Source: Dyadobacter fermentans | Lineage (GTDB): Bacteria; Bacteroidota; Bacteroidia; Cytophagales; Spirosomataceae | Length of the DNA stretch: 64,000 nt | Assembly: GCF_019924045.1 (NCBI RefSeq) | Contig: NZ_JAHXBN010000014.1 | Location: forward strand, 124,001 to 188,000 | Reading direction: 5' to 3' | Part shown: piece by piece, positions 46,634 through 64,000 of the stretch | How positions within the stretch are numbered: the stretch's first letter is position 1 | How the letters are laid out: each line of letters starts with the position of its first letter | Notes under the pieces: generated by a model | What the model was told of the DNA's origin: nothing | Database searches by the model: none | What the model saw: only the letters and a program-made list of their open reading frames with translations | Made by a program: the position numbers and the translations under genes

Positions 46634-46650
46634 GGTTACTTGGGTGCCTG

Positions 46651-46917: not shown

Positions 46918-46959
46918 GATTTCTAAAAGTTTAAGTGAAACAATGATGAAGTGTAATCG

Positions 46960-47598: not shown

Positions 47599-47607
47599 GG
47601 TTTTGAA

Positions 47608-47667
47608 TGATTGAATGAGTGAATGAATAAGTTTGTGAGTTTAGACTTTGAACTTTAAACTCTAAAC
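47608..47667. repeat. Intergenic word-repeat patch (AACTTTAAACTCTAAACTC type)
   Basis: Two vocabularies are seen: GAATGATTGAATGAGTGAATGAAT, then GTTTAGACTTTGAACTTTAAACTCTAAAC (quoted parts: GAATGATTGAATGAG, AACTTTAAACTCTAAAC). The second contains internally complementary TTTAGAC/TTTAAA/GAGTTTA words. The patch runs up to the TonB receptor stop. Confidence 0.5.
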
Positions 47668-49908
47668 TCACTGACTCTGATCGAGTAGATCCTCCGTGCG
47701 GTCGATGCCCAGGCTCATAAAGATGCCGAGGAAGAAGAAGCGGGGGGCAGGGAGGGTAATGGCGGTTTTGAATTGGCCGTTGTAGGCGTAGTTGTAGCCG
47801 AATACTTGCTTGGTTCCGAGCACGTTGTTGGCGCCGAATGCGAAGCCGGAGTAATCTTTGAATTTCGACTTTTTGAAAAAGGTCATCATTTTCGACACGT
47901 GCAGGTTGAGGACATTGTAGGGACGGGCAATGCCGGAATCGTAAATGCGGGTACCGGCATCTCCGCCGGCGCGGATGTCGTAATATGGCCGTCCGGCTGC
48001 GTAAGAGTAGGAAACATTGACATTGGTACTGATCCCCTGGAAAAAGCGTTTGATGGCGATGGTGAATGTATGCGGGCTCGTGAACGATGGCCGGATACTT
48101 TCGGGGTAGTCGAGGTACCTGCGTTTCGTGTCGAGGTAAGTGTAAGTGAGCCAATAATCCAGGTTACGGACGGTCTTTTTGTCGCGCCAGAATAGCTCCA
48201 GTCCTTTCGCATAGCCATCGCCGGCGAGGGTGATATCCGGGAATGTCTGCACCAGGTTCCTGTACTTTTTGTAATAAACCTCCGACCTGAAGAACCGGTT
48301 ATTGGCCTTTTTGGAGTAATTCAGCACATAATGCTCCGAGCGGGAGAATCCCAGGTTCCGGTTTTGAAAAAGGTACCGGTTCTCCGGTTTTTGGTAGAAA
48401 ACACCATACGCGAGGTTCAGTTGGCTGCCTGTTGCCAGCCGATATCCCAGGCTCGCACGCGGTGCTACCACTGCCTTGCGAAGCAGGCTCGAATACTCAG
48501 CCCGCAGTCCCGGCCGGAATGCCAGGTTCTCGCTCAAATGAATATCGCCTTCCATAAAGACAGCCGATAGCTGATCGCGGAGCGTCGCCGCGGTGCCATT
48601 GTAATGTTGTATGTCACGGAAAGAGAATGTCTCGCCGCCGAACCGGAACGCCTGGTTGCGTTCGAAGCTGCGCGTGAACACGGCACGGCCCTGTGCGAAA
48701 TGCGATCGGAGGGTTATGTCGCTGTTTTTCGTTGAAAATGGGGCGTTAGGCAAAGCTATGGGTTCATTACTTCCGACGAGCAGGCGGTTATGGACCATAT
48801 TTTTGTCAAAAGTGTAAGCCATGCCTGCGTCGAGGCGCCAGTTGGCTCCGAGGTCGGTCCGGTAGCTGACGGTCCCGTAGATGTTCGGGTTTTTTAAACG
48901 GAAATCGGAGCGGAGCAGCGAGCTGTCGGTGTCCGGGTTACGCATGCCGATATTGCTTTCGGCGAAGGCGACATACGCTTTCAGTATACCTGTTTTCCCG
49001 GTTGTGACGCGGATGTTCGCATTGGCGCTGGTGTATTCCGGCCCGTGATAATAGTCGGGGCGCTGGGGGACGACCTTATTGTACAGCCCCTGATTGCTGT
49101 AAGCGAGCCCGCCGCCATAGCTGCTCCGGCCCGATTTCGACAAATGCTGAAATCCCGCCCCGAGGTTCGAGGGAAATACGCTGAAATTGGCGGAGCTCTT
49201 TTCGGGCAGATCGATGCTTTCGAGGATCAATGCGCTGCTCATAGCCTGGCCGTATAATGCCGAGTAGCCGCCGGTGTTGAACAATACGCCCTTGAAAAGG
49301 AACAGATTAATGCGGGCTGGCTGCATAATGCCCGGCACAGAGGCATAGTTCGGGTTTTTCATAAGTGTACCATCGACGAACATCCGGGTTTCGTCGCTGG
49401 TACCACCGCGCACAAACAGCCCCTCGCGCTCGCCCACCTGCTGCGCGCCCGGGAGCGACCGCAGCGCATTGGATATATCGCCGCCATTGCCCGCCACAGT
49501 GTAGGCGTCGATGGGTGTGAGGGATGCACCTTTTGCTTTGTCGCTCGCTTCGAAGCTGCCGGCACTTACCGTCACGGCTTCGAGTGTATTGGCGGCATCG
49601 TCGAGGGTAATGGAGAGCGTAATGGTGCTATCTGCAATGGTGAGTGTTTGTTGTTGCGTTTTGAAGCCAAGGGACGAGACAACGAGCGTCTGATTGCCTC
49701 GCCGGTCAGTCTCGAAATAGAACTTGCCTAGCGAATCGGCTATGGTACCAGATTGGGAGCCTTTCATACGGATGTGCGCTCCGGGAACAGGTTCGCCCAA
49801 TGGCCCCGTTATATCGCCGTTAATGCGAGTCTGTGCCCGGGCCGCCAGCGTGAGAAGCAGGCTTCCCGCCATCAGGATGAGTCTGGTTGTGAATGCATTG
49901 GAAATCAT
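47668..49908 (-). CDS. TonB-dependent receptor with carboxypeptidase-like domain
   Basis: The 746-aa protein has a signal peptide ending ARAQ. The CarboxypepD_reg-like domain (about 28-110) starts INGDITGPLGEPVPGAHIR, a plug domain follows (about 115-230; RSLPGAQQVGEREGLFVRGG), then an outer-membrane barrel. It lacks the SusC VVVGYG box, so it is an ordinary TonB-dependent receptor for a siderophore, cobalamin, peptide or similar ligand. The LytTR/kinase pair lies 106 bp upstream on the same strand and may control it. Confidence 0.88.
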   Translation of the reverse strand: MISNAFTTRLILMAGSLLLTLAARAQTRINGDITGPLGEPVPGAHIRMKGSQSGTIADSLGKFYFETDRRGNQTLVVSSLGFKTQQQTLTIADSTITLSITLDDAANTLEAVTVSAGSFEASDKAKGASLTPIDAYTVAGNGGDISNALRSLPGAQQVGEREGLFVRGGTSDETRMFVDGTLMKNPNYASVPGIMQPARINLFLFKGVLFNTGGYSALYGQAMSSALILESIDLPEKSSANFSVFPSNLGAGFQHLSKSGRSSYGGGLAYSNQGLYNKVVPQRPDYYHGPEYTSANANIRVTTGKTGILKAYVAFAESNIGMRNPDTDSSLLRSDFRLKNPNIYGTVSYRTDLGANWRLDAGMAYTFDKNMVHNRLLVGSNEPIALPNAPFSTKNSDITLRSHFAQGRAVFTRSFERNQAFRFGGETFSFRDIQHYNGTAATLRDQLSAVFMEGDIHLSENLAFRPGLRAEYSSLLRKAVVAPRASLGYRLATGSQLNLAYGVFYQKPENRYLFQNRNLGFSRSEHYVLNYSKKANNRFFRSEVYYKKYRNLVQTFPDITLAGDGYAKGLELFWRDKKTVRNLDYWLTYTYLDTKRRYLDYPESIRPSFTSPHTFTIAIKRFFQGISTNVNVSYSYAAGRPYYDIRAGGDAGTRIYDSGIARPYNVLNLHVSKMMTFFKKSKFKDYSGFAFGANNVLGTKQVFGYNYAYNGQFKTAITLPAPRFFFLGIFMSLGIDRTEDLLDQSQ

Positions 49909-50014
49909 GGCTTTGTTTGTTTTTTGACCAAAGCTATGGCATGCCTCAATGCATTTCAGGGAGAGTAGACCAGACCACTAATGTCTGCGACGAAACCGTC
50001 AAATCCTGCGACGA

Positions 50015-50731
50015 TCAATCGGGCGAAATGTTCAGCAGTCTGCGGAGATTGGCTTTGAAGTGCTCACTGACCGGGATTTCGGCGGCACCAATCAGTACGA
50101 AATCGCGCTTGACCGCGGTGATTTTCTGAACGGCTACCAGGTAGGACTTATGGGTACGGACAAATGCCGGCTCTGGAAGTTTTTCTTCCAATGCCTTGAA
50201 CGTCATGCGGGTAATAACCGGTTTGGTGGCAGATGTAAGGTGAATTTTGACATAATCTTTCAATCCCTCGATCCACGCCACATCGGCCGCTACTATTTTC
50301 ACCAACGAATATTCGACATTCACGAAGAAATCGGGCAGCGCGGCGGGGGAGATGGCAACAGGTGTTTGGTGTTTTAGTTCGAACAACTCGTGGGCTCGGT
50401 TGCAGGCTTTTAGAAAGCGCTCCATACTCACGGGTTTTAGCAGGTAATCAACCACATTCAATTCGAAACCTTCCAACGCATATTGGTCATAAGCCGTTAC
50501 CAGGATCACGAGCGGCGGATCGGGAAGGGTTTTCAAAAATTGCAAGCCGCTGAGACGGGGCATTTGAATATCCAGGAAAAGCAGATCAATGCGCTCGTTT
50601 TGTAATATCTCAATAGCCTCCATCGCATTCCGCGCGGTTTTCACGAGCGTCAGGTAGGGCACCTGGCGGATATTGTCGACAAGTAGGTCGAGCACGAGCT
50701 TTTCATCGTCAACGGCAAGGCATCGCATCAT
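50015..50731 (-). CDS. LytTR-family response regulator
   Basis: The 238-aa protein has a receiver domain with D8-D9, phospho-acceptor D54 (LLFLDIQMPRLSG) and switch Lys in YLLKPVSM, then a LytTR DNA-binding domain (about 135-236; AFVRTHKSYLVAVQKI). ATGA overlap of 4 bp with the upstream kinase gene shows translational coupling. It is paired with a LytS-like kinase, the common arrangement, unlike the pair at 1644-4224. Confidence 0.92.
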   Translation of the reverse strand: MMRCLAVDDEKLVLDLLVDNIRQVPYLTLVKTARNAMEAIEILQNERIDLLFLDIQMPRLSGLQFLKTLPDPPLVILVTAYDQYALEGFELNVVDYLLKPVSMERFLKACNRAHELFELKHQTPVAISPAALPDFFVNVEYSLVKIVAADVAWIEGLKDYVKIHLTSATKPVITRMTFKALEEKLPEPAFVRTHKSYLVAVQKITAVKRDFVLIGAAEIPVSEHFKANLRRLLNISPD

Positions 50732-51750
50732 CGTAAATCCAGGTTCAGGGTGACTGTGAAAACTTGGTTGCGGTCGTCGATCACGAGGGTGTGTTTATCC
50801 GGATAAATGAGTTTTAGCCGGGTGCGTACATTTTCGAGACCAATGCCCGAATTCCCGTCTTTCGTTTCATCGGGGTAAGCATCGTAGGGATTGGTGACTG
50901 TTAGCGTCAGAAAGCCGTTCGCGGCTTCGAGGCGGATCAGAATATATGGTTCATCGAGCCGTGAGGCGCCATGCTTGAATGCATTTTCTACAAACGGGAT
51001 CATGATCATCGGCTCCACAGACAGGCGGCCGGCATCCGTATCCATTTGAATATCCAGTTCAATGCGCATTTCATCCGAAAAGCGCAGTTTTTGCAATTCA
51101 ATATAGCTTTTGAGATAATCCGTTTCCTGCTGCAAGGTCACCTGCTTCGCCTGCGTGTCGTACGTCATGTAACGCATGAGGTCAGCCAGGCGGAGGAGTG
51201 CATCTTCAAGTTGGTCGGAGCGTTGTCTCGCGAGTGCTACCATGTTTGTCAGCACATTAAAAAGAAAATGCGGATTGACCTGCGACCGCAGGAGTTTCAG
51301 CTCGGCGGCCAATTGCTGCGCCTCGTATTCCTTACGCGCACGTTCCCGGCGAATGCCGTCGCTTACCCGGCGATACACAATGCTTGCCGCGTATACCAAC
51401 ACCGACGGGCCGAATATCAATCCGGCGGCGCTGCGCAGCACTACTTCCGGGAAAAAGTGGGCTACAATCTGGTATTTGAGGGCAAAGGAGGCCATGATCG
51501 CGGCGATCGCGCAAGGAATATACAACCACCAGCGCCAGCCGCGGGCCAGTTTGGGATAGAGATAAAATGCATTGAAATAGAAAATCCCCGCGTGAATCAG
51601 GCCTGCCAGCACGAAAAACGCCGCCGGTAACCCGCCGATCCTGTATCCTTCGTCGGCTGATGATACGAGGTAGGGCAGCAGCAGAATGGTCAACCATATG
51701 CCGATATGGATTGCAATCTCCCGTTTCTGCTGCGTTTTCAAGGATGTCAT
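50728..51750 (-). CDS. LytS-like sensor histidine kinase
   Basis: The 340-aa protein has four membrane helices (about 10-130) and a coiled linker. The His_kinase domain of the LytS type has H161 in QVNPHFLFNVL, and the HATPase domain has FVENAFKHGASR and SGIGLENVRTRL. It has no extracellular sensor domain, so it likely reads the membrane or an associated protein. It phosphorylates the coupled LytTR regulator; the target set probably includes the TonB receptor just downstream. Confidence 0.9.
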   Translation of the reverse strand: MTSLKTQQKREIAIHIGIWLTILLLPYLVSSADEGYRIGGLPAAFFVLAGLIHAGIFYFNAFYLYPKLARGWRWWLYIPCAIAAIMASFALKYQIVAHFFPEVVLRSAAGLIFGPSVLVYAASIVYRRVSDGIRRERARKEYEAQQLAAELKLLRSQVNPHFLFNVLTNMVALARQRSDQLEDALLRLADLMRYMTYDTQAKQVTLQQETDYLKSYIELQKLRFSDEMRIELDIQMDTDAGRLSVEPMIMIPFVENAFKHGASRLDEPYILIRLEAANGFLTLTVTNPYDAYPDETKDGNSGIGLENVRTRLKLIYPDKHTLVIDDRNQVFTVTLNLDLR

Positions 51751-51813
51751 GTGAAGTGTAAAAATCCAAATTTATAGGAATCGCCTGCTAATCAAAAGAA
51801 ACGGGCAGCGAAC

Positions 51814-51850
51814 TAAAAAAAATCAGGCGGAGAGAAACTCCCCGCCTGAT
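51814..51850 (-). terminator. Rho-independent terminator
   Basis: A perfect 9-bp stem (51822-51830 with 51842-51850), with 11 nt between the arms, is followed on the minus strand by eight T. It ends the 1669-residue surface protein gene and hence the whole collar-protein unit. Confidence 0.85.
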
Positions 51851-51894
51851 ACCGTTAATCTAAACAACACATTAATAACGCATTAGTGTCGTAA

Positions 51895-54800
51895 TTATCG
51901 GTTGATAAGCACTTTCCGGTTGATAACCTCACCGTTCTTGTGCGTGATCGTCAGAATGTACATGCCTACCGGCAGGCTCTTCACATCGATGGTCTTTGAA
52001 ACGTTTTTCCCCGATTTATAAACCGAAAGTCCCGTCAGGCTATGCATTTCTACTGCCTTAACCTGGCTCCAATCCGTACTTCTCAGGTTCAGAACGTCGG
52101 ATACCGGGTTCGGATAGGATTCCGAGTTCAGCGCCGGCACATCGTAGCCAATCTTGATGATCTTACTGTAAGCGAATGTCTTATCGGTATCGATCATTTT
52201 CAGGCGGTAGAAGTTATCACCCGAAGCAGGCTTTTTGTCAACGAATGTGTAGTTCACCACTGAGTAGCTCTCGCCTTGAGACTTTTGTGTGCCGATAGTC
52301 GCCCAGTTTTTACCGTCGGCGCTGCGTTGAACATCGAAACGGTCGCTGTGCGTTTCTTCGGCCGTGTTCCATCTCAATGCAATGGTATTTTCAACTTTCG
52401 CACCGCTGAAATCGATCAGCGTCACCGGAAGAGAGCAATCTTTGTAAGCAGAGAGCGTGTCCGAACAGCCGTTCAGGGTCGCCACAATAATTGCCGTTTC
52501 CTTACTCGGAATGTTGATTACCGTGTTGCCGCTGACAGTACCCTTGTCGGTAGTGATTACAGCACCCGGGGTAGCCGTGAAGTATACGGTATACGTCTGG
52601 GGACTGGCCGCGAACTGGCATTCGTACTGGGCGCCGGTCAACGCGATGGTCGGCTTCTCGTTGACATTCACTGTGGCCGTCTGCCCGGAGATCGGCGTCG
52701 TAGCGCCGCCAGCACCGGCTACATTGGTCAAAGTGTAAACAAATGATCCCGTCGTGCCGGTCGGTACGTCTACGGTCGCTGTCGTGTTCACGCCCGTGGT
52801 CGACACGGTCAGGTCACCGCCGCCATTGATTTTATAGGTAAATGTAAACGGAGCGATACCATTCACAGCCGTAAATGTAATCTTAGGTGCCGTTTCGTTT
52901 TGGCAGGCAGTAGTGCTGCCGGAAATCGTCGCCGTGAGGTTGTTCGATACGGTTACAGTGGCCGTCTGAGCGGAAGGCGGCGTCAATGTGCAGTTCTGAG
53001 CGTCGGTCACCGTCACCAATTCGTAGGTAAATGTGCCCACGGCAGCAGTCGACTGGCTCACAGTTGCGCTGGTTTGCACGCCGGTGGTGCTCACCGTCTG
53101 GTTCGTTCCGTTATTCACCTTGTAAGTGAAAGTATACGGCAAAGTACCGCCGGTAGCGCTGAAAGTAACGTTTGGCGCCGGTGCACCCTGGTTCACGGTG
53201 GTAGTTCCCGCAATGCTCGAACCGGTGATCTGGTTCACGGTCAGTACCGCCGCGTCGGAAGTGCTGTTGTTACATGGGTTGGTGATGATACAGCGGTATT
53301 CCGAAAGATTATCGCTGGCAGGAACGTTGCTTAATGTCAGTGTCGGGTCATCGGCAGTCGGGTTTGTGCCGGTTGTAATGTTCGCGAATGAGCCGCCGAA
53401 TAGTTTTTTCTGCCATTGATAAGTAACACCTGTCTGCGAAGTAGCCACGGTGAACGAAGTACCGGAGCCTGCACAGATCGTCGCCGCATCAGGCTGGTCG
53501 GTGATCGGCGGAGCCGGGGTAGGGGTTACCGTTACTTTGAACGAGCAGGTAGGGGCTGTTCCGATGCCATTCGAAGCCGTTACAAGTACGGTTGTCTCGC
53601 CGGCAGGGAATGCGTACGGGAATGTGATCGGGTTGCCGCCTACGGTGTATGTAATGGTAGGGGCAGGACATCCGTCTGCGGTTGCGGTGAATGTCTTCGT
53701 GGATGTACAAGTTCCGGGATCAGGCGAGAATGACTGATCGCCCGGGCAGAAAGTGATAACAGGTGTAGAAGTTACCGTCGTAGTGGTCGGGTTGTTGGTT
53801 CCAACCGTGCCCGGATCGTCGGTAAGTACATTGGCGAAATTGCTTCCTGAAACTGTACCCTGAGTAGAAAGCTGACAAACCGAAGCCGGGATGTTGTTGT
53901 TGATCGTAACCCTGAACTTGATCGTCGTGCTCTTGCCGCTTGGAATGGTAAAGCCGCTTCCTGTACCATTTACGGTTACTGTCTCGCCAGCCTGGGTCGC
54001 CTCGGTTCTTGCAGGGCTTGGCGTAGCTGGTTGCGTTGCTTCGCTAACTGCGGGTTCGGTAACCGGTTGTACAACAGGGGTTGCGATGGCTACCTCCGGC
54101 TCTGCGGCAGGTGTGGTTACGGACTGTGCGGATGCCGTTTGATTCGATGCCTTATCGGCTTCCTCTTTTTCAGCCAACACCTCTACCACGCCTTCGCGGA
54201 ATACAAGCGCACCCGGCTGAGCACAGGTTGCATTGAAGGTAAATGTTCCTGCTCCGCTTTGAAGGGCCCGGCCTATCGGCGTATTGCCTCCGTTATCCCA
54301 TACACTCACGACCGTTGTTCCGGTTCCCTGCGAACGGACCGTAGAAGTGGTATTACCCGCCCTGGCACGATACGCAAAGTTGGTGGGCGACGACATGTTG
54401 ATCGTGTTGCCACTTACCTTGGAACAAATGATGGCATTGTTAAGGGCTACCGCCGGATCAAGAGCAGCTGCGGCTACGTCGATACCATAGAATGCGATGG
54501 CCGAAACCAGCTGAACATTATTGTTGACAAGCGAAAAGTTGCTCGTTGAACCGCCGGTGACGGTGGCGCCTGTGGCGATACCATGCACGTTCTGTACATT
54601 TTTAACGGTGTTACCCTGGATAAGAACGGTGGCTTTGGCCTGGTTGCTGCCCGCAGTGATACCTTCCACGGAAGCTACAATGCCGGATACCGCATTAGAC
54701 AACGACGGGTTGTCTGTCGTATTATTGAGAATGGTCCCTTCGATGGTACCATTGCCGGAGCCAAACGAATTGATCCCGATACCGCCGTTGTGTTTGACGT

Positions 54801-56904
54801 TATTGCTTTCGATGTTAAACTTGGCCGTAGCATTGTTGAATGCTGAAACATCGATCCCCCTGCCTACTCCACTGCCTGGATCGACGGTAGCGTTTTTGAT
54901 TTCGGCAGTCATCAGCGAGTTGTCGTTGGCAAATACTTCCACACCAGCCGTCCGGCAGTTCAGGAATTTGGAATTATTCTGAACTTTCACTTTCATATTG
55001 GAAGTTCCGTAACCCACTACCTGAAGACCTGAGGCGCCGTCGGAATCCTGGAAGGTAGAGTTATCGACGGTTAGCAACGCCATATCGGTACTGAAATTCG
55101 CGAAATAAGCAGCCCGGCCTCCCGGATCGGTGAAAGTAGAATTCGTGATCGTGTTCGTACCACCGGTATTTACGGCAAAAATACAGCCTTCGAACGAGTT
55201 CCCGGAAGAGCCAGATGAGCCAACCGAACCATTGGTAAAACTGAAATTGCTGGTACCCCGCAGGTTGATACCTTCCTGCGCCACCGTTCCGCTGATGATA
55301 ATACGGTCCATTGTCAGGCCGTTGGTATTCAATGCATGTACCGCTGCATAGGCATTTGCATTAGCCATGTCGGTGGGAGTACCGGATGGTGTCGTGCCGT
55401 CGGTCGTGTTGGCGTTGGTCAGGTTTATGTTTTTGAGGGTAATGTTGGTCGTGTTAAGCAATTCGATACCGCGCTGGGCGATGTTCTGGATCGTCCCTCC
55501 GCTTCCCAGGGTAGTTCCGCTACCCGTTATCTGGAAAGTACCGCTGGTACCGGAAATAGTCATCCCTTTATTACCCCCATTTGCGTTTACCGCTGTCAGG
55601 GTTACGGCGAGGGTAATCCCGCCCGAAATGTCGAGCGCGGGTATATTGGTGCTGTTGTTGGCTGTCAGCGTTCCGGAAGTGATGGTGAGGTTCCCGGTAA
55701 CACTCGAAAGTTTGATTGGGCTGACAGTGCCGCTGGAAACCGTAGACGATACCTGGCCGAAAGTAGCAGCCAGCGCTTTGTTGGAAATATTCAGCGCGGA
55801 ACCGGTGCCGGTCAGATCGATTTCACTTGCCGTGAAAAGACCGGCGGCGCTACTCTGAAACTTGGCGCCCGAGCTATTACCGATGTTGAGCCCCTGAACT
55901 GTGGCAATACCCGACAAGGAGAACACATTGCCCGCAGAGTTGGTTAATGCCGGGCGTGTGCCGTTAATGGCTGGAAGCAGGTTGCTGCCGCTTGGAGCAG
56001 ACAGGCCGGTCAGAGCAAGTAATGTCGACCCGGTGGCTCCTTGCCCGAATACTTTTTGGTTGTTGCGGACCGTAATACCGCCGTCGTAGTTTCCGCTATA
56101 AATGAAAATGAAATGTCCGTCTTTCGCATTGTTGCCGGACCCATTGTTGATCGCCTGGAACGAGTTCAGGCTATTAAATGGCTTCGCCAGTGTTCCCGTA
56201 CCGCCTGCTGCGGCATCGTCATTGATAAACCAGATCACATTGCTGACGGTGATGCTTACCGTGGCCGTAGATGTCATCCCGGAGCCATTCTGGATATCAT
56301 AAGTGAATGTGTCCGTACCGGTATAACCTGCCGCAGGCTCGTAGGTGAATGCCCCGGTAGCGGCTGTAACGGTTGCGGTACCACCTCCGGTACTGGTAAT
56401 GGTGGTGGAGCCGCTGAGGCTCAGCGCTGTGCCGCCCGGGCTTACGTCGTTGGCGAAAAGGCCCGAACCCGCGTCGATATTAATCCCGACGTTCCCGATC
56501 GTGGAATAGCTGTCGTTTACTGCGATGGGGCTTGCTACCACGGATCCGGGGACCAGCGTCGTGTTGGCGTCGATCGTTTCGGTAAATGTGGTCCCGTTGG
56601 CAGGGTCAGGCCCACCGTTCGCGATTACTACGGTGTATTCCAGCACGCCGCCTGCGGTAGCGCCACCACTGATAACGGCATCCGTGTTGGTAGCGGTAAT
56701 GCTGGGTGCGAGGAACGCCTTCGCACCCGATTTCTTCCGTGCGCGTGCAAACGGCACTTTTTCTTGTGATTTTTTGTCGGACTTGGTTTCCGGTTTTGCC
56801 ACCCATTCCTGGGAAGCTGGCTTCTCGCCAGAAAGCTTGCTGACCATTTCGGCCCCCGACGCCAGCAGGGCAATGCCTGCCAGATAGTAGTAGAAAGTTT
56901 TCAT
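51895..56904 (-). CDS. Giant T9SS-exported beta-helix/Ig-like surface protein
   Basis: The 1669-aa protein has an N-terminal hydrophobic signal and a DUF11-like segment (about 75-120; EYTVVIANGGPDPANGTTF). A cadherin/VCBS-like segment follows (about 120-220), then a long right-handed beta-helix-like part (about 225-900) rich in short N/T/G strands. Next come a TATQP/E-rich linker, a HYR-like domain (CPGDQSFSPDPGTC), an Ig-like domain (YQWQKK) and two duplicate beta domains (TFTYKVNNG and TFTYKINGG). A type-A T9SS sorting tail (about 1590-1669) closes it. It is a probable adhesin or matrix protein. It is the last gene of the unit starting at 59454. Confidence 0.85.
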   Translation of the reverse strand: MKTFYYYLAGIALLASGAEMVSKLSGEKPASQEWVAKPETKSDKKSQEKVPFARARKKSGAKAFLAPSITATNTDAVISGGATAGGVLEYTVVIANGGPDPANGTTFTETIDANTTLVPGSVVASPIAVNDSYSTIGNVGINIDAGSGLFANDVSPGGTALSLSGSTTITSTGGGTATVTAATGAFTYEPAAGYTGTDTFTYDIQNGSGMTSTATVSITVSNVIWFINDDAAAGGTGTLAKPFNSLNSFQAINNGSGNNAKDGHFIFIYSGNYDGGITVRNNQKVFGQGATGSTLLALTGLSAPSGSNLLPAINGTRPALTNSAGNVFSLSGIATVQGLNIGNSSGAKFQSSAAGLFTASEIDLTGTGSALNISNKALAATFGQVSSTVSSGTVSPIKLSSVTGNLTITSGTLTANNSTNIPALDISGGITLAVTLTAVNANGGNKGMTISGTSGTFQITGSGTTLGSGGTIQNIAQRGIELLNTTNITLKNINLTNANTTDGTTPSGTPTDMANANAYAAVHALNTNGLTMDRIIISGTVAQEGINLRGTSNFSFTNGSVGSSGSSGNSFEGCIFAVNTGGTNTITNSTFTDPGGRAAYFANFSTDMALLTVDNSTFQDSDGASGLQVVGYGTSNMKVKVQNNSKFLNCRTAGVEVFANDNSLMTAEIKNATVDPGSGVGRGIDVSAFNNATAKFNIESNNVKHNGGIGINSFGSGNGTIEGTILNNTTDNPSLSNAVSGIVASVEGITAGSNQAKATVLIQGNTVKNVQNVHGIATGATVTGGSTSNFSLVNNNVQLVSAIAFYGIDVAAAALDPAVALNNAIICSKVSGNTINMSSPTNFAYRARAGNTTSTVRSQGTGTTVVSVWDNGGNTPIGRALQSGAGTFTFNATCAQPGALVFREGVVEVLAEKEEADKASNQTASAQSVTTPAAEPEVAIATPVVQPVTEPAVSEATQPATPSPARTEATQAGETVTVNGTGSGFTIPSGKSTTIKFRVTINNNIPASVCQLSTQGTVSGSNFANVLTDDPGTVGTNNPTTTTVTSTPVITFCPGDQSFSPDPGTCTSTKTFTATADGCPAPTITYTVGGNPITFPYAFPAGETTVLVTASNGIGTAPTCSFKVTVTPTPAPPITDQPDAATICAGSGTSFTVATSQTGVTYQWQKKLFGGSFANITTGTNPTADDPTLTLSNVPASDNLSEYRCIITNPCNNSTSDAAVLTVNQITGSSIAGTTTVNQGAPAPNVTFSATGGTLPYTFTYKVNNGTNQTVSTTGVQTSATVSQSTAAVGTFTYELVTVTDAQNCTLTPPSAQTATVTVSNNLTATISGSTTACQNETAPKITFTAVNGIAPFTFTYKINGGGDLTVSTTGVNTTATVDVPTGTTGSFVYTLTNVAGAGGATTPISGQTATVNVNEKPTIALTGAQYECQFAASPQTYTVYFTATPGAVITTDKGTVSGNTVINIPSKETAIIVATLNGCSDTLSAYKDCSLPVTLIDFSGAKVENTIALRWNTAEETHSDRFDVQRSADGKNWATIGTQKSQGESYSVVNYTFVDKKPASGDNFYRLKMIDTDKTFAYSKIIKIGYDVPALNSESYPNPVSDVLNLRSTDWSQVKAVEMHSLTGLSVYKSGKNVSKTIDVKSLPVGMYILTITHKNGEVINRKVLINR

Positions 56905-56969
56905 GGTTTCAGTTTGAAGAATAATTTTGGATCATAGGATTGGAAGTTGAGATGGTCCGGACAATCCGG

Positions 56970-57278
56970 TTAAGAAAAAACAGCTTCGTAGCGCGTGCCC
57001 AGCGGATCCTGGGCTATGGGAACTAAAAAAATATCGAGGTATTTCCCGTTCGGGTGAACGACCCTGAAAATCCCTTGTGCAAAGACCCTGTGATCGCCAT
57101 TGGTCTGAAACTCTACTGAAAATGAACTCCTTTCGAGGGGAGTATAGCCGTTCAGCTCGTTAACAGCTGCAATAGTTGCGGGCAGGGAAAAATTTTCTGC
57201 GAAATGGATGACCACCGGTCCGCCGGTTAGCGCTTTAAATTCCGCTGCGGTTATCTGGCTTAAATCGTATGTTTCCAT
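56970..57278 (-). CDS. DUF6916-like small protein
   Basis: The 102-aa beta-rich protein opens METYDLSQITAAEFKAL and has the pattern GPVVIHFAENFSLPAT, then LERSSFSVEFQTNG and QGIFRVVHPNGKYLDIFLVPI. This matches DUF6916, found beside tail-collar proteins in many bacteria. It has no signal and no known function. It overlaps the acetyltransferase gene by 19 bp, so the two are translationally coupled. Confidence 0.75.
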   Translation of the reverse strand: METYDLSQITAAEFKALTGGPVVIHFAENFSLPATIAAVNELNGYTPLERSSFSVEFQTNGDHRVFAQGIFRVVHPNGKYLDIFLVPIAQDPLGTRYEAVFS

Positions 57279-57757
57279 TCCATTAAATGATAAACTCCAT
57301 TGGTTTCACTGATTTTTTTAAATCCAAGGCGGGTATACAGATTCTTGGCAGGATTAAAGGCTTCTACATGGATCGTGAGCGGCCTTTCCAGGTCTGCTGC
57401 CCTGTCCATGAGGTCTTTAAAAATAGCCTGGCCGAACCCCCGGTTCCGGTAGTCGGGCAGGATACTGATGTCAATAATCCGCATTCCCAGGCCTTGAAAG
57501 TTCTCGTGGAGGTAAAGCCTCCCGATGGTTTTGTTTTCAAATTCAATCACCCAGAAATAGGCACCTATATAATTTTTCTGATAGTATTCGTGCTGCGCTT
57601 CGAACTGACTGTTCAGGAATTCTTTTTTCATAAGATCAGTCCAGAACGGGACTCTCTCCATTTCTGCCTCCCTTGTGCTGGCATAGACTTCCCTCAAAAA
57701 AGGAGCGTCTTTGGGCGTAATGGGTCTGAGTGCAAGAGCGGTATTGGTAAGCTTCAT
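57260..57757 (-). CDS. GNAT-family N-acetyltransferase
   Basis: The 165-aa protein has the acetyl-CoA-binding motif LPDYRNRGFGQAIF (R-x-x-G-x-G type) and a later LTIHVEAFNPAKNLYTRLGF. It likely acetylates an amine on a protein or small molecule. It sits inside the collar-protein unit between the third collar gene and the DUF6916-like gene, so a modifying role on the secreted proteins is conceivable but inferred. Confidence 0.85.
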   Translation of the reverse strand: MKLTNTALALRPITPKDAPFLREVYASTREAEMERVPFWTDLMKKEFLNSQFEAQHEYYQKNYIGAYFWVIEFENKTIGRLYLHENFQGLGMRIIDISILPDYRNRGFGQAIFKDLMDRAADLERPLTIHVEAFNPAKNLYTRLGFKKISETNGVYHLMEWKHTI

Positions 57758-57804
57758 TTTTTAAGATAAATCAGAAAAATATAAACAATGCCTATCAGTG
57801 CCTG

Positions 57805-58326
57805 CTAAGGGCGCTGCGGGAAAATGCCTTGTAGGGCTATACAGAAGTTCACCGTAAGATACGGCATCATATTGTTATGGGGGAATGTGGATCCGGTCAC
57901 CGAGGTTGCCTGAAAATGCATCTGCGCGTTGGGTGAGCCCGTAGCATAGATACTCCCTTGCGTCGAAAATGCAAGCGCGCTGTTCGGGCTTGGCGTTTTG
58001 AGTTCGCCTGCTTCCGGCGCCGCATTCATAGTGTGGGTATGGAATGGAATTTCGCTGGTAAGCAATGTCACATTTTCTGACCCCGACTGCTCTCCAAGGT
58101 CATGGAGCGAAAGGCCGGGCCCCTGCCCAGGCTGCATGGGTGCGCTGCCCTGAAGATCGGGCAATGCAAATGTGGATTTGCCATCGCCGCCGTATGTCGT
58201 TCCCAACAATGAAAACAAGGCCGTGTTTTGTGAAATGGGCATGAGCTGTCCGTTACAAAATGCCCAGCCGGTGGGAGGAAAGTTAAACGGGAATATTCTT
58301 ATCTCTGCTACGAATTGATCTGCCAT
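57805..58326 (-). CDS. Phage tail-collar-domain protein (third of three)
   Basis: The 173-aa protein is a single tail-collar domain with IRIFPFNFPPTGWAFCNGQ, ISQNTALFSLLGTTYGGDG and FALPDLQGSAP, as in microcystin-dependent protein (MdpB) and phage T4 gp12 collars, and ends in a conserved PYLTVNFCIALQGIFP. It has no signal peptide. It is 45 bp after the previous collar gene and 47 bp before the GNAT gene. No sheath, tube or baseplate gene is near, so this is not a prophage. Confidence 0.88.
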   Translation of the reverse strand: MADQFVAEIRIFPFNFPPTGWAFCNGQLMPISQNTALFSLLGTTYGGDGKSTFALPDLQGSAPMQPGQGPGLSLHDLGEQSGSENVTLLTSEIPFHTHTMNAAPEAGELKTPSPNSALAFSTQGSIYATGSPNAQMHFQATSVTGSTFPHNNMMPYLTVNFCIALQGIFPQRP

Positions 58327-58371
58327 TGGATTGATAGGTTTTGAGGTTCTACAATTGCCTGTCGCCGAAAA

Positions 58372-58890
58372 CTAGGTTTGCGACGGGAATACGCCGAACA
58401 GGGAAATGATGAAGTTGATACACAAATAGGGCTGCATGTTCGTGTGCGGCTGACTGCCTCCAATGGGGACGAGGGCCTGCGCGGCCATCGGCTGGGCAGG
58501 CGTGCTGATAATGAAGGAGTTTACCGTACTGGATGTCCCGAGGACAGCGTTCTTGGGGCTGGCCGCATCTGCGGCCCCGGTATTAGCCAGGAAAGCGTGG
58601 TTATGCTGTGGAATCTGCTGCGTCGTGAGCGTCACCTCTTCGACCCCGCCGGTTTCGCCTATCGTATAGGTGCTGCCGCCTCCGAGCGTACCCATGTGAA
58701 CAGGCAGGCGTCCCTGCAAATCGGGCAGGCGAAAAGTTTCTTCGCCATCGCCGCCATATGTTGTTCCTATCAATTGGAAAAGGACTTCGTTTTCAGATAT
58801 CGGGAGTGTTTGCCCTTCGCAGAACAACCACCCGTTGGGCGCGAAGTTGCCTGCAAATAGTCTGATCTCTCCTACGTAAGGTTGTCCCAT
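58372..58890 (-). CDS. Phage tail-collar-domain protein (second of three)
   Basis: The 172-aa collar domain has IRLFAGNFAPNGWLFCEGQ, FQLIGTTYGGDG, FRLPDLQGRLP and the C-terminal PYLCINFIISLFGVFP. It is the most diverged of the three: it has EGQ instead of NGQ and VLFQLIG instead of ALFALLG. It is 54 bp after the first collar gene. Tandem divergence suggests separate fibre subunits rather than redundant copies. Confidence 0.88.
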   Translation of the reverse strand: MGQPYVGEIRLFAGNFAPNGWLFCEGQTLPISENEVLFQLIGTTYGGDGEETFRLPDLQGRLPVHMGTLGGGSTYTIGETGGVEEVTLTTQQIPQHNHAFLANTGAADAASPKNAVLGTSSTVNSFIISTPAQPMAAQALVPIGGSQPHTNMQPYLCINFIISLFGVFPSQT

Positions 58891-58944
58891 ATACTTTTGA
58901 AGTTTTGTGTTTTGAGTTGGATGATTGGAAATCGCTGCCGGACG

Positions 58945-59454
58945 CTAGTTTTGGCTTGGGAAGATACCTTGCAACGCAATGCAAAAGCTGATCACCAGAA
59001 AGGGCTGCAGGTTGGTGTGTGCCTGGCTGCCGCCCACGTTCGAAATAGTAGCCGCAGCGATCGGCGAGAGCGAGTTAGGAACCGTCGAATAAATGTTGTT
59101 CGGCAATGAGTTGGCCAGAAACGCGCCCGTAGGGTCATTCAAATTGGCAGGGCCCGAATCGATGGCGTTCACAAAGTGGTTGTGCGCAGGCATTTCGCTC
59201 ATGTTTATCGTGTGCGCTTCCTGTCCTCCCTTCTGGCCGAGGTTATACCCGTTGCCAAAGTGAATGGGTACCCTGCCACGGAAATCAGGCAATGCGAAGT
59301 TGGTCTGCCCGTTCCCCCCGTAAGTAGTACCAAGCAAAGCGAACAGTGCCTGATTTTGGTTGATAGGGAGAAGTTGCCCATTGGCAAGCGCCCAGCCTTT
59401 CGGCGGGAAATTGAAACTCACCATCCGGATCTCAGATAGAAATGGTTCAGCCAT
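58945..59454 (-). CDS. Phage tail-collar-domain protein (first of three)
   Basis: The 169-aa protein is read from 59454, matching the MA..F.. start of its two neighbours; the frame extends to 59502 but that part lacks family support. Collar motifs are MVSFNFPPKGWALANGQ, NQNQALFALLGTTYGGNG and FALPDFRGRVPIHFG. It is the promoter-proximal gene of the unit, so the whole set probably begins here. Confidence 0.88.
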   Translation of the reverse strand: MAEPFLSEIRMVSFNFPPKGWALANGQLLPINQNQALFALLGTTYGGNGQTNFALPDFRGRVPIHFGNGYNLGQKGGQEAHTINMSEMPAHNHFVNAIDSGPANLNDPTGAFLANSLPNNIYSTVPNSLSPIAAATISNVGGSQAHTNLQPFLVISFCIALQGIFPSQN

Positions 59455-59971
59455 AAAATGAAATGGGTTAAAGAATGGATAATGTAAATATTGACGTTTC
59501 ACTGCCGGTTGCCGGCAGTATCGATGAAGTGCAGTCGAAATGAGTGTTGATGAGCAGTATTGACCGGTTTGTACCTGTCCCGATTAGGACGATACCCGGA
59601 AAACGGCAATGACAACAGCGGAAGATGTAGAAGTTATTTTCATAAGGAGGTGCGTTTGGTTCAGGTTATGTAAAAATAGTACTTCAATATTAGTGATATA
59701 TCGCCATTTCGAGGAAATAAATTACTAAACGGTAATAATTATTCTACGTATAATGATATAAAAAGCTGGTAACTAGTTGCATTAAAATATTGAATATGAG
59801 GTTCTTGAAATTATCCTCCGGCGGTAAAAGATTTTCAAACGGCTTAATTTGCTACGATAGATTTCGATCAAAGCAATGGGATCTTACTTGTTAGATTATT
59901 CATGCTCTGGATGTTAAGAATCGATGGTTCCCGGCTTTATAGAGTGACCATACTTAGCTAACCCGGTACCT
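59455..59971. other. 517-bp AT-rich spacer between divergent units
   Basis: The spacer separates the collar unit (minus) from the GH140-like gene (plus). It holds an 8-bp hairpin (59501-59508 with 59512-59519, 3-nt loop). On the minus strand there is a 19-codon frame at 59643-59584, in phase with the first collar gene but closed by TAA. The central part (about 59690-59900) is AT-rich and likely contains both promoters, which I cannot pin down. Confidence 0.4.
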
Positions 59972-61339
59972 ATGAAACCCAACAAGCTCCTCATTCTGGC
60001 AGTGCTCTGCTGCTCGCTCGCAGGCGCACGCGCACAGCACTATACGATAAGTGGAAACAAGCGTTTTTTACTCAGAGAAGATAAGCCTTTTTTCTGGCTT
60101 GGCGACACTGCCTGGGAGCTTTTTCACCGGCTCGATCGCGCCGACGCCGATTATTATCTCCAAAAACGTGCTGAGCAGGGCTTTACCGTCATTCAAGCAG
60201 TGGCTTTGGCTGAATTCGATGGGCTGGCCGAGCCGAATCCTTATGGTGAAAAACCACTGGTCAACAACGATCCCACGCAGCCGAACGAGAACTACTTCAA
60301 GCACGTCGATTACATTATCGACAAAGCGGCGAGCTATGGCTTAACCATCGCTTTCCTGCCGACCTGGGGCGATAAAGTGTTTAAAAATACCTGGGGCAAG
60401 GGGCCGGAAATTTTTAATGAAAACAATGCAAAAATCTATGGAAAATGGCTTGGTAATCGCTACAAGGCCAAGCCAAATGTGATATGGGTGCTCGGCGGTG
60501 ACCGGCAGCCCCGGAAAGACAGCCGGGACGTGGAAATCTGGCGAGCCATGGCTGCCGGCGTTGCCGAAGGAGTGGGAGGGCATGACAAGGCTTTGATAAC
60601 CTACCATCCTCAGCCGAACAAGGAAGGTTCCAGCGAGTGGTTCCACGACGACGAGTGGTTCGATTTCAATATGTTCCAGACCGGCCATTGCCGGGATTCG
60701 CCGGTTTACGACAACATCCAGCGCTCGTACAACCGCACGCCCGTGAAGCCGGTTATCGACGCGGAGCCCATTTACGAAGACCATCCGGTGTGTTTTAATG
60801 TAAAGGAAAATGGCACGTCGAGCGCGTACGACGTGCGTAAATCGGCTTACCTCGATCTCTTCGCGGGCGCGTTCGGACATACGTACGGGTGTCACGACAT
60901 ATGGCAGATGTATTCGCCCAATCGTGAGGCAGTGAACGGCCCGCATATTTTTTGGCAGCAAGCCCTCGACTTGCCGGGCGCTCTGGAAATGAAGTATGTA
61001 CGGAGGCTGATGGAGTCCCGCCCGATCACGGACCGCGTTCCCGACCAGTCGATCGTGATTGAAAATGCTTTGCCGGCCCCCGAGCGTGTGCAGGCGACGC
61101 GTGGTAAGGATTACCTGTTTGTATATACGGCGTCCGGAAAGCCCTTTTCGGTGAACCCCGGCAAAATATCCGGCACAAGCCTGGAAGCATTCTGGTACGA
61201 TCCGCGGAATGGCAAAGTGCGGGACGCCGGGAAATTCGATAATAGGACGGTCAATAAATTCATCCCGCCTACATCCGGCTACGGACACGACTGGGTGCTG
61301 GTGATAGACGATGCGGCGCAGGGATACAAGAAGCCCTGA
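59972..61339 (+). CDS. GH140-like (DUF4038) secreted glycoside hydrolase
   Basis: The 455-aa protein has a signal peptide ending ARAQ. The DUF4038 core has FFWLGDTAWELFHRL, GFTVIQAVALAEFDGL and VIWVLGGDRQPRKD; KPVIDAEPIYEDHP holds the likely catalytic acid. The C-terminal domain (about 365-455) looks like the collagen-binding-like domain common in this family. Family 140 contains the apiosidase of the rhamnogalacturonan II pathway. It lies upstream of the ECF sigma/FecR/SusC set, so that set may sense a pectic glycan; this is inferred. Confidence 0.82.
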   Translation: MKPNKLLILAVLCCSLAGARAQHYTISGNKRFLLREDKPFFWLGDTAWELFHRLDRADADYYLQKRAEQGFTVIQAVALAEFDGLAEPNPYGEKPLVNNDPTQPNENYFKHVDYIIDKAASYGLTIAFLPTWGDKVFKNTWGKGPEIFNENNAKIYGKWLGNRYKAKPNVIWVLGGDRQPRKDSRDVEIWRAMAAGVAEGVGGHDKALITYHPQPNKEGSSEWFHDDEWFDFNMFQTGHCRDSPVYDNIQRSYNRTPVKPVIDAEPIYEDHPVCFNVKENGTSSAYDVRKSAYLDLFAGAFGHTYGCHDIWQMYSPNREAVNGPHIFWQQALDLPGALEMKYVRRLMESRPITDRVPDQSIVIENALPAPERVQATRGKDYLFVYTASGKPFSVNPGKISGTSLEAFWYDPRNGKVRDAGKFDNRTVNKFIPPTSGYGHDWVLVIDDAAQGYKKP

Positions 61340-61356
61340 CAGCATTTCGCATGATG

Positions 61357-61421
61357 GTGAATGATCGGATTGGAGTAATTCCGGGTAAAGTTTTACTTAA
61401 TAAAGAAATTCGATCATTCAC
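61357..61421. promoter_or_regulatory. 11-bp inverted repeat before the ECF sigma gene
   Basis: GTGAATGATCG (61357-61367) and CGATCATTCAC (61411-61421) are perfectly complementary with 43 nt between. The right arm ends 28 bp before the start of the sigma factor. It could be an operator or promoter-region structure. Confidence 0.4.
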
Positions 61422-61449
61422 AGCATTCATTTTGTACACCGGCTGACCG

Positions 61450-62022
61450 ATGGAGCAGGACCTCGAACGTTGGAAGAAATTCAAAGACGGCGATGCAGCC
61501 GTTTTTGAAGCCATGATCCGGGGAGAGTTTCGTGCGCTGTTTGAATATGGCTCGCGTTTCATCCACGACCGCGATACGCTGAACGATTGCATCCATGATC
61601 TTTTTGCCTCGCTTTGGGACCGCCGCCGTTTCCTGGCTGATACCGATAAAATCAGGCCTTACCTGCTGAAAAGCCTCCGCAACCGGTTACTTAAAGAAAT
61701 TGAGCGGAAGCATGCGCTTACGCCGTTTGAAAGCTGGCATGAAGGCCGCGATGCGGAGGAAGATATCGAAAGCCGGCTAATTTCGACCGAAACCGACGAG
61801 CGCCGCAAGCTGCAAATCGGGACAGTACTGCATTCGCTGACACCCCGCCAGCGTGAAATCATCCACCTCAAATTCTTCGAAAACCTCTCGCACGAGCAGA
61901 TCGCCGAGGTGCTCGATATTTCACGGCCTGCCGTGGCGAACCTGCTCTCGCAAGCATTACGACTCTTCCGTGCCAAGTGGCACTCCATTTTACCTTCGTT
62001 TTTTCTTATTTTAATGTGTTGA
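61450..62022 (+). CDS. ECF-type RNA polymerase sigma factor
   Basis: The 190-aa protein has region 2 (about 20-95; FIHDRDTLNDCIHDLFASLW) and region 4 (about 120-175; LTPRQREIIHLKFFENLSHE, then DISRPAVANLLSQAL). It belongs to the FecI-like class that works with FecR-type anti-sigma proteins and STN-domain SusC receptors. It is immediately upstream of the FecR gene. It ends in a short hydrophobic tail, which is unusual but common in this family. Confidence 0.9.
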   Translation: MEQDLERWKKFKDGDAAVFEAMIRGEFRALFEYGSRFIHDRDTLNDCIHDLFASLWDRRRFLADTDKIRPYLLKSLRNRLLKEIERKHALTPFESWHEGRDAEEDIESRLISTETDERRKLQIGTVLHSLTPRQREIIHLKFFENLSHEQIAEVLDISRPAVANLLSQALRLFRAKWHSILPSFFLILMC

Positions 62023-62128
62023 TTATTAATCAGTTAAATGATCCTCGAAAGTTTTTTTACTTTTTTCGATGATGATTTCCGCATTTGCCGATTATCCTGC
62101 CTGTAAATACACCAAATGGTGTTCTGTT

Positions 62129-63214
62129 ATGAAATATTATAAAGATTACGATCTCGAAGACTTCCTGCAAGACGACAGTTTCCGCCGGTGGGTAGTCGGT
62201 GAAGCCGACGCGACGGAGGGGCTTTGGGACGAGATCGTGCGCCTCTATCCCGATAAAAAAGTGATTATGCAGCAGGCGCGGGAGCTGATCACCACCTGGC
62301 GCGCGCACGCGGCCATTGTGACCGATCAGCAGCTCGAAGACCAGGTACAGCGCATCCTGCATACGACACAAGCAGGCGCCGAAGAGCCGGTACAACGCGT
62401 GCAATGGCGAAAATGGCTTTCCGTCGCTGCGGTAGTAGCGCTGGTAGTGGGCCTGGGTGCTGCTTTTTGGTGGAAAACTGAGCACACAGAAAATGGCGGA
62501 GGCCGCAGGATCGCCTACGTGCCGGGGGCGTCGAAGGCATTGCAGGAGGTGGTCAACAGGACAGGCAAGGCCATGCGCGTTGGATTGCCGGATGGCAGTC
62601 AGGTGAGCCTCGCACCCGCGGGCAGGATTAGTTATGCGGCGGATTTTATCCATGACAAAAAGAGGGAGGTCTTCCTGTCCGGCCAGGCATTTTTCGATGT
62701 GACGAAGGACCCGCAGAACCCGTTTTTTGTATATGCCAACGGGTTGGTGACGAGGGTGCTGGGGACCAGTTTTTTGGTTAAAACCACCGATACGAACGTG
62801 GAAGTGCTGGTAAGGAGCGGAAGGGTATCGGTTTTGCCTTTGAAAGACATTGAAAATCCCACCGACCGCAGTACTGAACTGCTTCTGACGCCCAACCAGC
62901 AAGCGATATTTTCGGTGAAGGACAATGTGGTTTCCAAATCTATCACCAATATGCCGCTCGAACTCATCAAGCCCGACCCGGAAGCCGGTTTTGTATTTGA
63001 AAACCAGCCGGTGAGCAAAGTATTCTCTGCATTGGAAAAAGTGTACGGCATTCCGATCGTGTACGACGCGACCGTGATGGAGAAATGTTCGCTCCGCGTG
63101 GAGCTGAGTAATGAGCCTTTTTTCACCAAACTCGACATCATCACGCAAACCCTCGGAGCGGCCTACCGCGTGAGCGACGGCCAGGTAGTCATTTCGAGCG
63201 AAGGTTGCAGATAG
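62129..63214 (+). CDS. FecR-family anti-sigma factor
   Basis: The 361-aa protein is read from 62129 (MKYYKDYDLEDFLQDDSF), after an upstream non-family stretch. A cytoplasmic N-domain binds the sigma factor. One membrane helix lies at about 93-112, then the FecR domain (about 155-250; VPDGSQ-like LPDGSQVSLAPAGRISY, VTRVLGTSFLV) and the DUF4974 C-terminal domain (about 275-360). It holds the ECF sigma factor until the SusC receptor's STN domain contacts its periplasmic part. Confidence 0.92.
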   Translation: MKYYKDYDLEDFLQDDSFRRWVVGEADATEGLWDEIVRLYPDKKVIMQQARELITTWRAHAAIVTDQQLEDQVQRILHTTQAGAEEPVQRVQWRKWLSVAAVVALVVGLGAAFWWKTEHTENGGGRRIAYVPGASKALQEVVNRTGKAMRVGLPDGSQVSLAPAGRISYAADFIHDKKREVFLSGQAFFDVTKDPQNPFFVYANGLVTRVLGTSFLVKTTDTNVEVLVRSGRVSVLPLKDIENPTDRSTELLLTPNQQAIFSVKDNVVSKSITNMPLELIKPDPEAGFVFENQPVSKVFSALEKVYGIPIVYDATVMEKCSLRVELSNEPFFTKLDIITQTLGAAYRVSDGQVVISSEGCR

Positions 63215-63412
63215 CATTCAATTTTACCTACCTATTCATCCTAAACCCTTAACATATGATTAAACACCAATTGTAGAAAGCAAAAAGCCGGAAACGGGTC
63301 CAGCGTTTCCGGCTTGAAAATTCCCCGGATTTTAAGCGAAACTTAAATCTCCCAAAATGGGAGAGAGGAAGGTCTTTGTCGTTTGTGAACACCCAAAAAC
63401 CATCGTAAAAGT
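63215..63412. promoter_or_regulatory. Leader of the STN-SusC gene with two hairpins
   Basis: A perfect 12-bp stem (63285-63296 with 63304-63315) with 7-nt loop has no T-run on the plus strand, but TTTTT on the minus side. A second hairpin, CTCCC/GGGAG, is at 63349-63363. The 198-nt gap is longer than expected between such genes, so the leader may regulate receptor expression. Confidence 0.45.
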
Positions 63413-64000
63413 ATGAAAAAAAATAGTTTACCATTTAAATATTTGGTAGCTGCGATGAAAGTTACATGCATACCATTTCTGGTGTCCCTCTTCTTTCAGA
63501 GCCTGGCCCTCGCCAACGACGGCGTGGCACAGGAAATCCTGAACCGGGAGGTCACGCTTCAAGCCAGGCAGCAAGACCTCAAACAGGTGCTGACGACGCT
63601 TGAAAAGAATGCCAAAGTCAAGTTTTCATACATTCCGTCCCTGATTTCGAACCAGAAAGCGAGCGTAGAAGCTTCCAACCAGAAACTCAGCAAGGTGTTG
63701 AAGGAGCTGCTGGGGCCATTGCAAATCCATTATTCGGTGTCGGGTAACTACATTATCCTGGTCCGCAAACCCGATGAGTCGTTTTCCGATTCCCCGAAGC
63801 TGCTCGAACCGGTACCGTTGCCGTACCTGCACCGGGTGGATATCGGCGTGAAAGGCAAGGTGACGGGCTCCGATAACAAGGAAGCGCTGCCCGGCGTGAG
63901 CGTGGTGGTGAAAGGCACGCAGCAAGGCGCTATTACCGGTGGCGACGGGAGTTTCGAACTCGTAGTACCCGACGATAAAGCTGTGCTGGTATTCAGTTTC
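63413..64000 (+). CDS. STN-domain SusC/RagA receptor (3' truncated)
   Basis: An uninterrupted frame of 196 codons runs from ATG 63413 to the window end. It shows a signal peptide (VSLFFQSLALAND), then a secretin/TonB short N-terminal (STN) domain (about 45-110; LKQVLTTLEKNAKVKFSY, LQIHYSVSGNYIIL). A carboxypeptidase-like domain starts VKGKVTGSDNKEALPGVSVV (about 142). The STN domain signals to the FecR protein just upstream, completing the ECF sigma cascade. The plug and barrel are outside the window. Confidence 0.9.
   Translation, partial: MKKNSLPFKYLVAAMKVTCIPFLVSLFFQSLALANDGVAQEILNREVTLQARQQDLKQVLTTLEKNAKVKFSYIPSLISNQKASVEASNQKLSKVLKELLGPLQIHYSVSGNYIILVRKPDESFSDSPKLLEPVPLPYLHRVDIGVKGKVTGSDNKEALPGVSVVVKGTQQGAITGGDGSFELVVPDDKAVLVFSF

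Follow-up and report, generated by a model that had tools for sequence, protein, structure and literature searches.

We analyzed a row of six genes in a stretch of 64,000 nucleotides from Dyadobacter fermentans (contig NZ_JAHXBN010000014.1, positions 124,001 to 188,000; hereafter the window). The genes encode three proteins with a Phage Tail Collar Domain (collars 1 to 3), a predicted GNAT acetyltransferase, a protein of the DUF6916 family and a giant protein with a sorting signal of the type IX secretion system (T9SS). Such gene sets are usually read as leftovers of phage tails; judged by its gene content and order, however, this one is a conserved bacterial unit present in several phyla. We estimate a probability of about one half that the six genes form a surface system of the cell, independent of phages, in which a heterotrimeric collar head knit together by a metal works with the giant as its scaffold. 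From sequence we infer a fibre or adhesion function.

Linkage of the Six Genes across Bacteroidota

Two genome sets were surveyed, namely the window's genome (8.0 Mb, 173 contigs) with 58 relatives, 37 of the 59 being of the same genus in all, and a sample of 395 genomes drawn evenly from Bacteroidota, that of the window included. DUF6916 was found in 18 of the 59 genomes, and exactly these 18 hold the collar triplet, at a spacing of approximately 560 bp. The even sample contained DUF6916 in 13 of 395 genomes at 16 places, and a collar gene was present at all 16 loci, once 3 kb away. In a scan of contigs, 43 of 46 named DUF6916 loci had collars; two of the three without them (L134, L136, and L140) lay on contigs of 6 and 13 kb. 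Further, exactly three collar genes were present in each of the 38 Bacteroidota loci L095-L132.

The preliminary description of the window had asked whether a T9SS giant regularly follows the small genes (collars, GNAT and DUF6916; hereafter the cassette) in Bacteroidota. A giant adjoined the cassette in 37 of these 38 loci, downstream on the same strand in 35 and divergently in two (L130 and L132), and the contig of the remaining locus (L131) is cut. All 37 giants carried an N-terminal module of the type found in the window, approximately 1000 amino acids long. All 10 further Bacteroidota neighbours that were scanned also had a T9SS signal. In the window's genome there were 116 matches to the T9SS signal, 34 of them with an open reading frame (ORF) of at least 1000 amino acids, and both collar loci of that genome end in one of these 34.

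The second collar locus of this genome (L007, C35:206001-226000) and loci in five Dyadobacter relatives form a different type (type B), in which the collars are followed by a T9SS-type giant of approximately 1270-1295 amino acids. In L007, a single collar gene is accompanied by a double one, and the giant of 1272 amino acids has a T9SS signal recognized by Pfam; the other five giants match that of the window by BLAST and have similar C-terminal sequences. The type-B collars are partly fused, with two in one ORF and once three (a natural three-collar ORF in L064), and the number of collar domains was 3 or 6 in all six loci. Upstream of the collars, genes for a sigma factor, FecR, a TonB receptor and a 507-amino-acid protein were found in five of the six loci, and another giant in L067.

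A collaboration of the six genes, as suggested in the preliminary description, is strongly supported at the level of sequence by the conserved co-occurrence and order of the genes, the adjoining giant, and the fusions of collars with each other and with DUF6916. Collars with unrelated neighbours everywhere, an outcome that the same description had named as contrary to its reading, were not seen in the loci surveyed, and the linkage of the cassette, as judged from its neighbourhoods, is not due to chance.

Three Collar Classes and a Conserved His-x-His Motif

In phylogenetic trees, the collars fell into three classes whose boundaries do not follow those of phyla. The window's collars represent one class each, and its collar 1 clusters with those that come first in the loci of relatives. 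Support was 94/88 for class 3 and 95.9/73 for class 1, which has one type-B group inside it. For class 2, support was 94.7/94 without the Proteobacterial and Acidobacterial members and 91.8/57 and 14.6/16 with them. The deep support of the tree was modest.

Hidden Markov models (HMMs) of the three classes were trained on 18 Dyadobacter loci only, the window included, and applied to 43 other triplet loci; one collar was assigned to each class in 38 of them. The type-B loci and all loci short of three collars are outside this count, as are L137, whose locus is cut, and L081, which coincides with L230. The class order was 123 in most triplet loci, 213 in L138 and L230, 231 in L139 and 321 in L220; L141 carries two complete collar sets. 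Because the three classes are kept together in varying orders and fused collars total multiples of three, we propose that the three collars fold into one heterotrimeric head.

A His-x-His pair behind the Collar domain was detected by a strict pattern in 175 of 177 collar ORFs, and the two misses also read HxH. This conservation suggests that the head may be knitted round a metal, with each chain contributing one His-x-His pair, as in the short tail fibre of phage T4. In having this pair the collars agree with the head of the T4 gp12 type; the PDB alignment of the collar to 1ocy ends before the motif.

Two further forms of the domain were observed. Paired, shortened collar genes of approximately 100-120 amino acids occur in L061, L062, and L071, in the first two beside a large protein, and are either minimal collars or decaying genes. 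In proteins of 311-415 amino acids with a signal-peptide-like start (L069:8855-9820, L072, and L073), the collar domain lies further along the chain and is put to a different use.

GNAT and DUF6916

Seventeen Dyadobacter GNATs were aligned with a mean column identity of 72%, and that of the window was 43% identical to the GNAT of an Aminobacter cassette. The acetyl-CoA motif Q/RxxGxG/A, which reads RNRGFG in the window, was present in 38 of 52 cassette GNATs. By domain score and motif the window's protein belongs to the GNAT family, and an acetyltransferase role is predicted. An AlphaFold2 model of the DUF6916 protein (predicted local distance difference test 88, predicted template modelling score 0.81) was confident, small and mainly beta, and had no known match. 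DUF6916 is fused to a collar in two loci (L222 and L224), which argues for physical contact between the two.

The Giant Partner

The window's giant consists of a hydrophobic N-terminus, DUF11-like and Big_9 domains, a right-handed beta-helix that resembles the adhesin PfbA and phage tailspikes, an immunoglobulin-like (Ig-like) part and a C-terminal T9SS sorting domain (PF18962, 43.9 bits, cut-off 27; TIGR04183, 34.6 bits, cut-off 23). By this sorting domain it is a predicted T9SS cargo. An HMM of the N-terminal module also matched the large neighbours in L133 and L135. Outside Bacteroidota, the giant carries other devices for export or anchoring, namely SLH domains in Paenibacillus and an autotransporter barrel in Ruegeria TM1040. 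The giants are diverse, and the small cassette genes constant. Because the export or anchor device varies by lineage, export of the giant to the surface, as previously claimed for the window, gains support.

Possible Export of the Collars and DUF6916

Signal peptides and twin-arginine starts were judged by eye and by simple patterns. No signal peptide was seen in the collars, GNATs, and DUF6916 proteins of the Bacteroidota loci of type A; 109 of the 114 collar ORFs of L095-L132 had an EIR motif 6-7 residues after a Met. Related collars had signal-peptide-like starts in L145 and L147 (three collars each) and in L041 (two collars), indicating that in at least these lineages the collars probably act outside the cytoplasm. 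Further, a copy of DUF6916 begins with a twin-arginine motif in L133, L139, L220, and Comamonas.

A gene with a twin-arginine motif lies directly upstream of collar 1 in 18 of the 38 named Bacteroidota loci. Eleven such proteins (from nine named loci and two unnamed ones, one of the latter cut) form one weakly conserved family; the protein of L124 looks different and was outside this alignment. The protein of L126:7078-7800 belongs to this family, and the two members scanned had no Pfam match. Since a twin-arginine protein stands beside the collars in many relatives and is sometimes DUF6916 itself, folded collars could leave the cytoplasm there by piggyback on a partner of the twin-arginine translocation (Tat) pathway. 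No such partner was found beside the window's collars.

These observations bear on a different explanation, namely that collars, GNAT, and DUF6916 always stay in the cytoplasm, joined in a complex that acts on the giant prior to export as its chaperone or as a factor for its folding or modification. The leaderless small proteins of type A and the combination of diverse giants with constant small genes are consistent with such a complex, whereas the signal-peptide-like collar starts and the four loci with a twin-arginine start on DUF6916 would put the partners outside the cytoplasm there. We consider the complex rather unlikely, although of the alternatives it survives best.

Leaderless collars might also be freed by lysis or in vesicles and act as lectin-like or antagonistic heads, with the giant serving the cell as their receptor or tether. 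Phage fibres that bind surface glycans terminate in collar domains, and the likeness of the giant's beta-helix to PfbA and tailspikes would suit this explanation. Against it, no lysis gene was recognized among the six genes of the unit or the 10 flanking ones, and collar versions with signal-peptide-like starts exist; it appears improbable.

In L041 (10168-12515), the two signal-peptide-like collars flank a 328-amino-acid protein with a T9SS-signal-like end, a compact variant of collars and cargo.

Cassettes in Other Phyla, on Plasmids and on Contigs Filed as Viral

Related cassettes were found in Proteobacteria, Deinococcus, Acidobacteria, and Paenibacillus. Collar 2 matched 67 plasmid records, and 16 of the 20 records listed had three places. 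Seven records were opened (Aminobacter, Ruegeria TM1040, Pontibrevibacter, Comamonas, and three of Deinococcus). The Aminobacter, Ruegeria and Pontibrevibacter plasmids carry a giant, three collars, a GNAT, and DUF6916, and the Comamonas plasmid carries the same set with a second DUF6916 gene; Pfam confirmed the DUF6916 assignment in all four plasmids. In the three Deinococcus plasmids, a protein of approximately 900-944 amino acids before the collars matched the giant-module HMM (89-118 bits). A GNAT was seen in two of these records, and no match to DUF6916 was found in the three with an HMM trained on Dyadobacter. Two collars are annotated in D. gobiensis and three were found by HMMs. All three collars were 60-63% identical between Dyadobacter and Aminobacter, which points to horizontal transfer.

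Collar genes, mostly as triplets, were also found on IMG/VR contigs filed as viral (L142 and L144-L147), L144 having two collars, GNAT, and DUF6916. These contigs are perhaps cellular fragments that were classed as viral because of their collar genes. In L142, a sulfotransferase gene (2865-3770) lies after the collar triplet and before a giant with DUF4347 and fn3 domains.

A domesticated prophage or tailocin remnant with a T9SS gene beside it by chance would account for L144 and for the phage tail proteins that are the named families closest to the window's collars. This explanation, already disfavoured in the preliminary description, is very unlikely: one collar of each class is conserved across phyla in a cassette without tail genes, and no phage structural gene was found among the 10 genes flanking the unit. 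Further, the phage locus inspected had one collar among minor tail proteins and an endolysin, with neither GNAT nor giant. DUF6916 was not found in phage records or viral contigs, which are weak negatives, as the viral scan missed L144 and tblastn also missed plasmid members of DUF6916 that Pfam recognizes. We give scarcely any credence to an anti-phage decoy, in which a host collar heterotrimer disturbs the assembly or attachment of phage fibres, since the homology of the collars to receptor-binding fibres of phages would fit but PADLOC models matched none of the six unit proteins and the usual linkage with an exported giant would be left unexplained.

Layout of the Unit and Its Surroundings

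The features of the unit are listed in Table 1. The curated cut-off of PF07484, the Phage Tail Collar Domain, is 24 bits and was exceeded by all three collars. For collar 1 we took the start to be the ATG supported by alignment with relatives; the ORF as called mechanically begins earlier, with a GTG at 59502.

Table 1. Features of the six-gene unit, with positions in the window
Feature	Position	Strand	Description
Collar protein, class 1	58945..59454	-	169 aa, leaderless, MAEPFLSEIR start; PF07484 97 bits
Collar protein, class 2	58372..58890	-	172 aa, leaderless; PF07484 98.3 bits
Collar protein, class 3	57805..58326	-	173 aa, leaderless; PF07484 98 bits
GNAT protein, predicted acetyltransferase	57260..57757	-	165 aa; PF13508 46.4 bits (cut-off 27)
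DUF6916 protein	56970..57278	-	102 aa, small, mainly beta fold (model); PF21880 68.1 bits (curated cut-off 27)
Giant protein, predicted at the surface	51895..56904	-	1669 aa; Big_9 and Por_Secre_tail by Pfam
Intrinsic-terminator-like stem-loop	51822..51850	-	13-pair stem, then seven T; closes the unit

The preliminary description had reported six genes in a row on one strand, gaps of 45-65 bp with one overlap of 19 bp, and a strong terminator at the end, and it had considered a prophage or contractile device unlikely. The coordinates and the Pfam scores above cut-off agree with the row of genes, and the intergenic distances recomputed from the coordinates were, in order, 54, 45, 47, -19, and 65 bp. 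The 19-bp overlap of GNAT and DUF6916 was identical in 23 of 39 loci (the window and the 38 named loci), with gaps of 12-27 bp in the other 16. The terminator was found as described; its stem was the longest among the 13 stem-loop sites of the region, a number in line with the shuffled expectation (12.5).

Prophage genes beside the unit, likewise named in that description as contrary evidence, were not seen among the 10 flanking genes. No sheath, tube, baseplate, spike, terminase, portal or lysis gene was recognized in the six unit proteins or the 10 flanking genes, and none of the latter matched a phage structural family in PHROGs; the PHROGs that they did match were sigma factors, transcriptional regulators and families without function. 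No tRNA was found in the window and no Rfam match within 46000-64000.

Upstream of the unit lies a divergent gene for an apiosidase-like glycosidase (59972-61339), of which close relatives were found in six Dyadobacter cassette loci (L042, L043, L047, L051, L054, and L056). The downstream neighbours encode a histidine kinase, a LytTR regulator and a TonB-type outer-membrane protein.

Discussion

In the surface system that we favour, the collar head would sit on the giant, whose beta-helix and Ig-like parts, carried to the surface by the host's own route, would serve as its stalk or scaffold. DUF6916 may help the head to assemble or to dock, and GNAT may acetylate the collars or DUF6916, perhaps at their conserved short N-termini. 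The head on its giant would most likely be a glycan-binding or cell-contact adhesin. In the window's genome, the leaderless head would have to leave the cytoplasm by a route not seen there.

Several observations weigh against this model. The window's collars have neither a signal peptide nor a known export route, and the family of Tat partners has no match in the window's genome. The excess of Tat-like genes near cassettes was weak (27/416 near versus 19/565 far; Fisher p = 0.03, uncorrected for kinship). Five triplet loci did not have one collar of each class by the class HMMs (L145, L146, L147, L227, and L229), and the margins of these HMMs were as low as 7-10 bits in L133, L142, L236, and L238. 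Several related loci hold a single collar, and the heterotrimer would thus not be universal. The acetyl-CoA motif was not matched in 14 of the 52 cassette GNATs, mostly those of Flavobacterium. As for the giant, none was recognized in two of a set of 13 Bacteroidota loci (L226 and L227), and none lies directly beside the cassette in the Acidobacterial locus L139, where a 1096-amino-acid TIG-domain protein follows approximately 2 kb on. For L135, L142, Aminobacter, Pontibrevibacter, Comamonas, and Deinococcus, no export or anchor domain was recognized in the large neighbour; the sequences scanned for L142 and the first three of these genera were incomplete.

A broader proposal, which we regard as speculative and doubtful, is that such units form a class of bacterial surface appendages across several phyla. 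Their obligate heterotrimeric head would fold before leaving the cytoplasm and be exported in that state by Tat piggyback, with DUF6916 or a different twin-arginine protein as partner; some lineages would use Sec instead. The head would be placed on a giant scaffold that uses the route of the host (T9SS, autotransporter or S-layer).

Bacterial "tail fiber proteins" are easily dismissed as phage debris and may cause cellular contigs to be marked as viral. The cassette offers a testable job for two unassigned families, DUF6916 and this GNAT, and its one-of-each rule predicts a mixed collar trimer. Further, the swap of T9SS signal, S-layer domain and autotransporter barrel amounts to a natural experiment that sets the host's export device against a shared machine.

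Among known systems, the T9SS cargo adhesins of Bacteroidota resemble the unit's giant in their Por_Secre_tail, Ig-like and beta-helix domains; we know of no such adhesin that depends on collar partners. Chromosomal proteins annotated as "tail fiber protein" (COG4675, microcystin-dependent protein) belong to the same family as the collars. The triplets on the Aminobacter, Deinococcus, Comamonas, and Ruegeria plasmids are so annotated, with no function given, and the cassette with GNAT, DUF6916, and giant is not named. The T4 short tail fibre gp12 (PDB 1ocy and 1pdi) and a phage long tail fibre (8kec) have, like the unit, a Collar domain recognized by sequence, and the unit's collars share with the gp12 type of head the His-x-His pair behind this domain. 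In T4 gp12, a homotrimer, the pair binds zinc, one pair coming from each chain. In contrast to gp12, the unit's collars have no fibre shaft, are not accompanied by virion genes and are three different chains. Tailocins and extracellular contractile injection systems have in common with the unit the cellular use of phage tail parts; unlike them, it shows no sheath, tube, baseplate, spike or lysis gene among its own or the 10 flanking genes. We rate the unit as a case in which cells employ tail-fibre parts of phages at their surface, a kind of use that would not be categorically new.

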